Of a stretch of 35,832 bases of DNA, positions 21,397-22,126 are shown piece by piece. Within the stretch, counting starts at the first letter, position 1, and every line of letters starts with the position of its first letter. This DNA is from Bacteroidales bacterium (GTDB taxonomy: Bacteria; Bacteroidota; Bacteroidia; Bacteroidales; VadinHA17): positions 1-35,832 of the forward strand of contig JAGGWN010000016.1 in NCBI GenBank assembly GCA_021157415.1. Direction: 5' to 3'. The notes under the pieces are model-generated. The model did not search any database. It saw only the letters and a program-made list of their open reading frames with translations, and was not told the DNA's origin. Both the position numbers and the translations under genes were made by a program.

Positions 21397-21404
21397 TATT
21401 TTTG
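21397..21404 (+). promoter_or_regulatory. Candidate -7 element for the tRNA-Leu/structured-RNA transcript
   Basis: TATTTTTG matches TAnnTTTG and is followed by about 90 nt of leader before the first structured element. The -33 region has GTTTAC rather than TTTG. In the gap 21258-21495 I see nothing else except AT-rich sequence and the start of the direct repeat. Confidence 0.4.
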
Positions 21405-21454
21405 TAGCCCGATTTTGGGAGAAAGAGCATTTGTGAAAAGAACAGAAAAAACCG

Positions 21455-21506
21455 GAAGTTCTTTTATGTATTGATAATAATTAAATTACTTATTTGCCCA
21501 GATGGC
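21455..21506 (+). repeat. 52-bp direct repeat, copy 1 (tRNA-Leu upstream region plus first 11 nt of tRNA)
   Basis: It is identical except for one base to 21616-21667. It contains the AT-rich region upstream of tRNA-Leu(CAG) and the tRNA's own first 11 nt (GCCCAGATGGC, 21496-21506), but the rest of the tRNA is absent; the structured element continues instead. The two copies are offset by 161 bp. Confidence 0.9.
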
Positions 21507-21586
21507 AGGGCCGAACGTAAAGAAATGAGCCGGTGGCTCATTTTAGAGAGGAGCCGGGATGCAGGGGAGACAATTCCGCCATCTGG
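21498..21586 (+). ncRNA. Structured RNA element, copy 1 (precedes tRNA-Leu CAG)
   Basis: About 89 nt that fold by eye into a closed structure. The outer stem is 9 perfect pairs, CCAGATGGC (21498-21506) with GCCATCTGG (21578-21586). An inner hairpin has 9 perfect pairs, AAATGAGCC (21523-21531) with GGCTCATTT (21535-21543), loop GGT. A small hairpin GGGA/TTCC (21565-21568 and 21574-21577) has a 5-nt loop. Between outer stem and first hairpin lies GGGCCGAACGTAAAG, almost identical in copy 2. There is no ORF of note. Its 5' arm coincides with the first bases of a duplicated tRNA-Leu. It could be a small RNA, a tRNA-transcript processing element or a palindromic mobile element. I do not recognise it as a named RNA family. 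Confidence 0.65.
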
Positions 21587-21615
21587 AGGGATTACACAAT
21601 AAATAAGAAAAATCA

Positions 21616-21667
21616 GAAGTTCTTTTATGTATTGATAATAATTAAATTATTTATTTGCCCAGATGGC
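21616..21667 (+). repeat. 52-bp direct repeat, copy 2 (in front of the intact tRNA-Leu CAG)
   Basis: Partner of 21455-21506, with a single T/C difference. Here the tRNA continues intact from 21657, so this is likely the parental copy and the upstream one the duplicate. Confidence 0.9.
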
Positions 21668-21740
21668 GGAATTGGTAGACGCGCTAGTTTCAGGGACTAG
21701 TGCTCGTAAGAGCGTGCAGGTTCGAGTCCTGTTCTGGGCA
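21657..21740 (+). tRNA. tRNA-Leu (anticodon CAG)
   Basis: An 84-nt class II tRNA. The acceptor stem is GCCCAGA with TCTGGGC and discriminator A (21740). The D-arm has GGTAGAC, and the anticodon stem CTAGT/ACTAG holds loop TTCAGGG with CAG at 21691-21693, reading CUG. A long variable arm (GCTC-GTAA-GAGC) and the T-loop GTTCGAGTC confirm leucine type. CCA is not encoded. No clear terminator follows before the second structured element, so it may be co-transcribed with the next tRNA. Confidence 0.97.
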
Positions 21741-21839
21741 CTCACGGAACTATGAACAACGGATGTTGATTGATGAGTTATGCATTTCCCGTAGTTGTTC
21801 GATCTTCGTCAGTCAACCTTCGGGTTGCACAAAAGTCCG

Positions 21840-21920
21840 GGTGGCAGGGCCGGACGTAAAGAAATGAGCCGGTAGCCCATTGTAAGTAAGCCCGAATGCG
21901 GGGAAGGCTGTTTCGCCATC
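21840..21920 (+). ncRNA. Structured RNA element, copy 2 (precedes tRNA-Leu GAG)
   Basis: An 81-nt homologue of the element at 21498-21586. The outer stem is GGTGGC (21840-21845) with GCCATC (21915-21920), one G-U pair. The central hairpin is AATGAGC with GCCCATT and loop CGGTA, one A-C mismatch. GGGC (21847-21850) can pair with GCCC (21890-21893), and the small hairpin is GGAA/TTTC (21902-21905, 21911-21914). The core GACGTAAAGAAATGAGCCGGT is near-identical in both copies, while stems change with partial pairing retained. A CAACC-TTCG-GGTTG hairpin (21814-21827) lies just upstream. No 52-bp direct repeat accompanies this copy. Confidence 0.62.
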
Positions 21921-21995
21921 GAAAAATGAATATAATGAGTTGTTATTTATTATAAAGTGATTTTAGTTCTTATACATATTTTTTAATGATTCTAA

Positions 21996-22081
21996 GCCCA
22001 GGTGGCGGAACTGGTAGACGCGCCAGGTTGAGGGCCTGGTGGCCGCTTTAGGCCGTGCAAGTTCGATTCTTGTCCTGGGCA
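21996..22081 (+). tRNA. tRNA-Leu (anticodon GAG)
   Basis: An 86-nt class II tRNA. The acceptor is GCCCAGG/CCTGGGC with discriminator A at 22081. The anticodon stem CCAGG/CCTGG has loop TTGAGGG with GAG at 22030-22032, reading CUC and CUU. The variable arm is GGCC-GCTTTA-GGCC, and the T-loop is GTTCGATTC. CCA is not encoded. It is preceded by structured element copy 2 and followed directly by an intrinsic terminator. Confidence 0.97.
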
Positions 22082-22096
22082 CAATAAGAACGATGA

Positions 22097-22126
22097 AGTT
22101 CGATGAATGCATGTCGGACTTTTTTT
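22097..22126 (+). terminator. Intrinsic terminator of the tRNA-Leu cluster
   Basis: AGTTCGATG (22097-22105) pairs with TGTCGGACT (22112-22120) over 9 positions including G-U pairs, loop AATGCA, followed by a run of T from 22120 to 22126. It sits 15 nt after tRNA-Leu(GAG). Confidence 0.85.

Follow-up and report, generated by a model that had tools for sequence, protein, structure and literature searches.

The tyrT operon of E. coli contains the rtT RNA repeats (Rfam RF00391), tandem units of ~160-180 nt which lie within a tRNA transcript and each contain a piece of the tRNA. REP elements are short, hairpin-forming, multicopy sequences with a palindrome of 20-40 bp and a terminal GTAG or CGTC; they are intergenic, often located 3' of genes and in some cases arranged in arrays, and the REP/REPtron definition involves a RAYT-type Y1 transposase, while CGTC families without a dedicated transposase are found in Bacteroidetes (PMC3733652). 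MITEs are small, non-autonomous and multicopy, sometimes with flanking direct repeats. T-box and other tRNA-sensing leaders are leader RNAs which can pair with tRNA, the T-box recognizing the anticodon and the CCA end.

Two copies of an element which resembles REP elements in habit and rtT repeats in layout were found in a tRNA-Leu operon of a Bacteroidales bacterium, flanked by genes for a CDP-alcohol phosphatidyltransferase and a TonB-dependent receptor, within a window of 35,832 nucleotides (the whole stretch of DNA analysed). The element is likewise short, hairpin-forming, multicopy and intergenic, often 3' of genes and with some arrays, but it fails the features which define a REP: it has a 63-nt core with internal loops, a tandem G-A step and phylum-wide covariation, its consensus carries no GTAG or CGTC tag, its association with tRNA genes is strong and oriented, and its arms are complementary to tRNA. 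Like rtT, it is a repeat of a tRNA operon with a tRNA segment in each unit (nt 1-11 and antisense nt 3-18); unlike rtT, it combines the tRNA 5' end with an antisense copy, lies upstream, has a core which recurs away from tRNAs and gave no match to RF00391 at the gathering or the permissive threshold, so that the likeness does not extend to membership. It differs from MITEs in its conserved RNA-type structure, and neither terminal inverted repeats nor a parent transposon were found. In contrast to the T-box it has no Rfam T-box match, is followed by the gene of the tRNA with which it could pair, and would do so at tRNA nt 3-18.

We read the locus as a tRNA-Leu operon into which a short, repetitive, non-autonomous and probably mobile RNA element of Bacteroidota has inserted, a reading to which a probability of about 0.55 was assigned. 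For the tie of such an element to tRNA genes no matching known kind was found, the unmatched traits being a strict orientation rule, a target copied in both direct and inverted form, and a complementarity to the neighbouring tRNA which has been retained for long. Searches of the open-licence literature in PubMed Central gave no description of the element. The coordinates of the features are collected in Table 1.

Table 1. Features of the tRNA-Leu operon, numbered from the first nucleotide of the window
Feature	Position	Strand	Remarks
Putative -7 box TATTTTTG of the tRNA-Leu operon promoter	21397-21404	+	Bacteroidota consensus TAnnTTTG
Leader duplication, left copy	21447-21506	+	boxA-like GTTCTT at 21458-21463; ends in tRNA-Leu nt 1-11
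Element 1, 5' arm GCCCAGATGGC	21496-21506	+	11/11 identical to tRNA-Leu(CAG) nt 1-11
Element 1, core, 63 nt, bulged hairpin	21507-21569	+	Model R1, 86.9 bits, E 1.4e-14
Element 1, 3' arm CAATTCCGCCATCTGG	21571-21586	+	Reverse complement of tRNA-Leu nt 3-18
Leader duplication, right copy	21608-21667	+	boxA-like GTTCTT at 21619-21624; continues into tRNA-Leu(CAG)
tRNA-Leu(CAG), intact	21657-21741	+	ARAGORN, Rfam RF00005
Element 2, 5' arm GTCCGGGTGGC, degenerate	21835-21845	+	9/11 match; tRNA has GCCCAGGTGGC
Element 2, core, 61 nt, degenerate	21846-21906	+	Model R1, 44.8 bits, E 9.2e-6
Element 2, 3' arm CTGTTTCGCCATCGAA, degenerate	21908-21923	+	10/16 complementary to tRNA-Leu(GAG) nt 3-18
tRNA-Leu(GAG), intact	21996-22082	+	ARAGORN, Rfam RF00005
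Intrinsic-terminator-like hairpin and T tract, operon end	22095-22122	+	

A first-pass annotation, made from the sequence of the window, had described two copies of an unrecognised structured RNA, each placed before a tRNA-Leu gene. Both copies are present, one ahead of each of the two tRNA genes of the window (elements 1 and 2 before the CAG and GAG genes, respectively), and the absence of a known family was borne out: an Rfam scan of the window at the gathering threshold returned the two tRNAs and nothing else, a permissive scan of the window gave no believable family, and nothing in Rfam 15 matched at the element in 15 related loci. The annotation had also suggested that one transcript may carry all four units. 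This is likely, given one promoter-like site upstream. The putative -7 box is the sole TAnnTTTG site on the + strand from the upstream gene to the tRNAs, but the motif alone is at chance level, and co-transcription was therefore graded as likely only. The sequence around the box is kept in two congeners. Relatives without the element at tRNA-Leu(CAG) have an undivided, unduplicated leader of ~60-70 nt behind a comparable TAnnTTTG-like site, and in 34 of 39 loci a promoter-like site was absent between element and tRNA. The hexamer GTTCTT, which precedes element 1 and both tRNAs (the third occurrence is at 21966-21971), resembles the boxA antitermination signal.

Two features had escaped the first reading, namely the 60-nt direct repeat formed by the two leader copies (95% identity) and a 16-nt stretch, 21571-21586, which is 100% complementary to 21659-21674 in tRNA-Leu(CAG). 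The core of element 1 is AACGTAAAGAAATGAGCCGGT and that of element 2 is GACGTAAAGAAATGAGCCGGT; the copies have in common a 48-nt direct repeat with 88% identity. Copy 1 is more stable than its shuffles (z = -2.95), and copy 2, which is degenerate, shows no gain over them (z = 0.06).

A covariance model (R1) of the 63-nt core, comprising 17 base pairs, was constructed from 31 sequences. In this first alignment 13 of the 17 pairs varied in a compensatory way, with a covariation score of 0.381 compared to 0.121 for shuffled alignments. A second alignment, of 109 further distinct sequences, was fitted to R1 and so leans its way, some positions also having been fixed by the search pattern; in it, compensatory changes were found in 15 of 17 pairs (7.2 in shuffles), 97.5% of the cells were paired, and the score was 0.403, against 0.115 for shuffled alignments and at most 0.057 for slid controls. 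Pattern bias cannot account for the variable pairs, since these sit at unfixed positions; one of them was AU in 49 sequences, UA in 36 and CG in 20. The core consensus begins with AGG and ends near GGNGG, and is followed by a short 3' extension which is not conserved. In the 109 sequences G-U and U-G together occupied 130 cells compared to 10 for A-C and C-A; when the constant G-U pair was left out, 32 cells of the G-U type stood against 10 of the A-C type. One mismatch swaps between G/A and A/G (46 versus 38 sequences), and the tandem G-A step is retained. These are marks of RNA on the + strand of the window, and they suggest that the core is an RNA-type structure read on this strand. Covariation, on which the first-pass description of the stems depended, was strong in the central hairpin and the inner stem and modest in the outer stem, where the sequence is copied from the tRNA and its changes follow the tRNA. 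The small 4-bp hairpin of that description found no support in covariation: zero pairs had changed on both sides, and its TTCC strand is anti-tRNA sequence.

The element is a strongly conserved, uncatalogued structured RNA family, phylum-wide in Bacteroidota, and homologues outside the locus, on which the first reading had staked its claim, are numerous. A blastn search with copy 1 gave matches in 31 of 60 related genomes; many of these had several, and units of ~150-165 nt were frequent. Within the family to which the window belongs, model R1 recovered the element from 97 of 117 genomes; in wider samples it matched in 9 of 295 genomes of the order and 9 of 396 of the phylum. Named genera of Bacteroidota also carry the element, Algoriphagus and Myroides among them. 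Within the family the number of copies per genome ranged from 0 to 30, some genera having up to 30 and congeners none. A degenerate pattern run against a collection of 84,980 species, the scan from which the 109 sequences of the second alignment were drawn, gave Bacteroidota only among the matches listed. Viral contigs, phages and plasmids yielded no match to the element, and the idea of a phage or plasmid element was rejected on that basis.

Among 277 distinct copies, a sample skewed to tRNA-Leu because the first query included the arms, 45 were followed within 400 nt by a tRNA-Leu gene in the same orientation, and a further 22 were followed by a tRNA gene for Ser, Gln, Met, Glu, Lys, Phe or Val in the opposite orientation. 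At the latter the element sits at the tRNA 3' end, and at tRNA-Leu it lies upstream in the precursor leader, so that the target tRNA is ahead in the orientation of the element. The remaining copies are dispersed, mostly between genes (129 intergenic, compared to 9 in ORFs), and 83 of the 129 intergenic copies have a co-directed gene upstream. The gene for tRNA-Leu is one of several targets, and across the phylum dispersed copies form the majority. Of the roles which had been listed at first pass, a palindromic mobile element preferring tRNA-Leu fits best, except that the preference is shared with other tRNAs.

At tRNA-Leu genes the core is preceded by the leader with tRNA nt 1-11 and followed by the reverse complement of tRNA nt 3-18, after which come the leader again and the intact tRNA. 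Direct repeats between the left and right flanks (score of at least 14) were detected in 63% of the copies at tRNA-Leu and 68% of those at other tRNAs, with 8% and 3% in the respective controls. At one locus (L030) the core is preceded by a leader of 79 nt whose last bases are tRNA nt 1-11; to its right lie 17 nt antisense to the junction, a repeat of the 79-nt leader and the remainder of the tRNA. At the 3' end of a tRNA-Glu gene (L043) an equivalent layout is built of tRNA-Glu sequence, and these two loci indicate that the arms derive from the local target. Enrichment of inverted arms was confined to tRNA sites and did not extend to dispersed copies, and such arms were therefore rejected as a general property of the element. 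In 39 copies at tRNA-Leu the 5' arm matched its own tRNA at 386 of 429 positions (352 when permuted to the tRNAs of other loci) and the 3' arm at 536 of 624 (500 when permuted); for either arm, 0 of 10,000 permutations reached the observed value.

The preferred reading, invasion by a probably mobile element, would account for this arrangement as follows. Copies would have spread by insertion, and insertion at a tRNA gene would have duplicated the left flank and copied the junction in inverted form, two events which together would leave the tRNA intact. Older copies would come to lie farther from the tRNA and decay. Within the precursor, the 3' arm could pair either with the 5' arm of the element or with the tRNA, and the element may thus affect tRNA-Leu maturation, incidentally or by later selection. 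A pure insertion scar agrees less well with the arms: where the upstream leader has lost its likeness to the duplicate, tRNA nt 1-11 are matched at 11/11 positions in 14 of 21 copies. Such a match to the cognate tRNA despite a decayed leader suggests selection or gene conversion, to which arm retention points in general, although a duplication that was short from the start would give the same picture.

The same arms could belong to a device acting in cis in the leader of tRNA-Leu operons, in which the 3' arm resting on the 5' arm leaves the tRNA free and the 3' arm resting on tRNA nt 3-18 blocks it, the core swaying the choice, perhaps through a bound protein or ligand. This alternative was judged rather unlikely. 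When the element was folded together with its leader and tRNA, the 3' arm was predicted to lie on the tRNA at 38 of 39 loci and on its own 5' arm at none of the 39. Such a device is supported by these folds, by the tracking of each tRNA by both arms, by the retained 11/11 matches and by a GTTCTT box, which 25 of 39 loci retain in the stretch separating element from tRNA. Against it, the folds are minimum-energy, thermodynamic predictions which ignore co-transcriptional folding and tRNA modification, and a default fold which blocks the tRNA would be costly. The element is also missing at the CAG locus in many relatives, family members included, and the same core is found with no tRNA nearby and, at other tRNAs, on the opposite strand. 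A combination of both ideas, in which a mobile RNA that copies the tRNA 5' end and the antisense junction upon insertion has become a self-made, spreading switch of tRNA-Leu maturation, each insertion building a leader that could sequester its own target tRNA, was considered improbable. If the pairing matters, an RNA structure in the precursor would set the supply of tRNA-Leu in these bacteria; if it does not, the arms would be the readable scar of the insertion chemistry. With this family, Bacteroidota gain an uncatalogued, strongly covarying and phylum-wide structured RNA element.

Several observations are consistent with mobility. Four identical cores were distributed across three loci of one genome, and in another (G256) a single hairpin sequence was common to the copies at the CAG, CAA and TAA loci. 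Short flanking direct repeats (score of at least 9) accompanied 16% of the dispersed copies compared to 0.7% in the null; most dispersed copies had no clear target-site duplication, and terminal inverted repeats were absent from them (a score of at least 8 in 5%, against 2% in the null). In arrays the copy proximal to the tRNA scored better in 7 cases, worse in 2 and equal in 6. 

Candidate mobilising enzymes were also searched for. No Y1 transposase (Y1_Tnp) matched in three genomes with 21-24 copies each (G394, G397 and G025), where the RAYT-type enzyme of REP/REPtron elements is thus missing. Reverse transcriptases were missing in the high-copy genomes G394, G397, G338 and G007, TnpB was missing in 31 of 31 genomes tested, and IS110 was missing in most genomes with at least 20 copies. 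One of 30 Y1 loci was flanked by two cores, the rest by at most one weaker match. RAYT, reverse transcriptase, TnpB and IS110 were accordingly rejected as mobilisers, as none co-occurred with copy number, and past mobilisation may have been due to an enzyme since lost. At G000:C78:319-678 and 833-1048, in the genome of the window, a frame for a Y1 transposase, interrupted by two stop codons, adjoins a reverse-transcriptase fragment.

The element might instead be a REP-like or MITE-like DNA hairpin, which as a single strand would serve as substrate for a transposase lost or encoded elsewhere in the genome. Its hairpin shape, multicopy and patchy occurrence and the placement between genes, frequently behind a co-directed one, fit this view, and CGTC-type REPs, those of Bacteroidetes included, also occur without a dedicated transposase (PMC3733652). 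The tandem G-A, the G/A swaps and the excess of G-U over A-C in the 63-nt core suggest RNA rather than DNA, neither terminal tag was seen, and just one of the 30 Y1 loci had two flanking cores; this explanation was held to be unlikely.

Still less probable is a stable trans-acting small RNA freed from the tRNA transcript in the manner of rtT. The position inside a tRNA transcript, the piece of tRNA sequence and the tandem units of ~160 nt recall that system. The free trans-acting RNA of ~85 nt which the first-pass annotation had offered as a possible role is not indicated, because neither copy has an evident promoter or terminator of its own, and no constant flanks accompany the dispersed copies. 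Another idea considered was that of a self-splicing intron between tRNA nt 11 and 12, the 3' arm being complementary to both sides of the junction in the way of an internal guide. It was rejected, since nt 1-11 are present a second time in intact form, which leaves no need for splicing, and dispersed copies do not have this arrangement.

In some Bacteroidota group II introns (RF02001) the core occupies one internal position; in five of these (L044:1320-1564, L107, L182, L199 and L160) it lies in one hairpin just before a GTCAGCAGA motif, and its position is similar in several genera. Catalytic intron domains (D1-D6) were not seen: RF02001 had no match in the genome of the window (G000), no intron family matched at the element, and the core is all that is shared with some introns. 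Other introns of the same class lack the core, which suggests that the copy at L044 is an insert. An origin from a group II intron domain was rejected, and for these reasons the introns are more likely hosts than source.

Other surroundings of the core recur as well. In genera rich in dispersed copies it is often bordered on both sides by short tandem units (L137, L138, L139, L131, L133, L144 and L149), for example GACAAAA/GACTAAA, GACGAAGC and CAGTCGG, as if core and units arose or spread together. In three genera (L113, L174 and L218) it directly follows a sequence resembling the 3' end of a TPP riboswitch. At six loci (L106, L119, L157, L169, L194 and L211) it borders or interrupts Rhs/YD-repeat-like genes, with the frame shifted. 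Finally, L043:457-502, in a genome from the order to which the window belongs, gave an Rfam match to Acido-Lenti-1 RNA with a score of 48.2 bits (gathering score 37).
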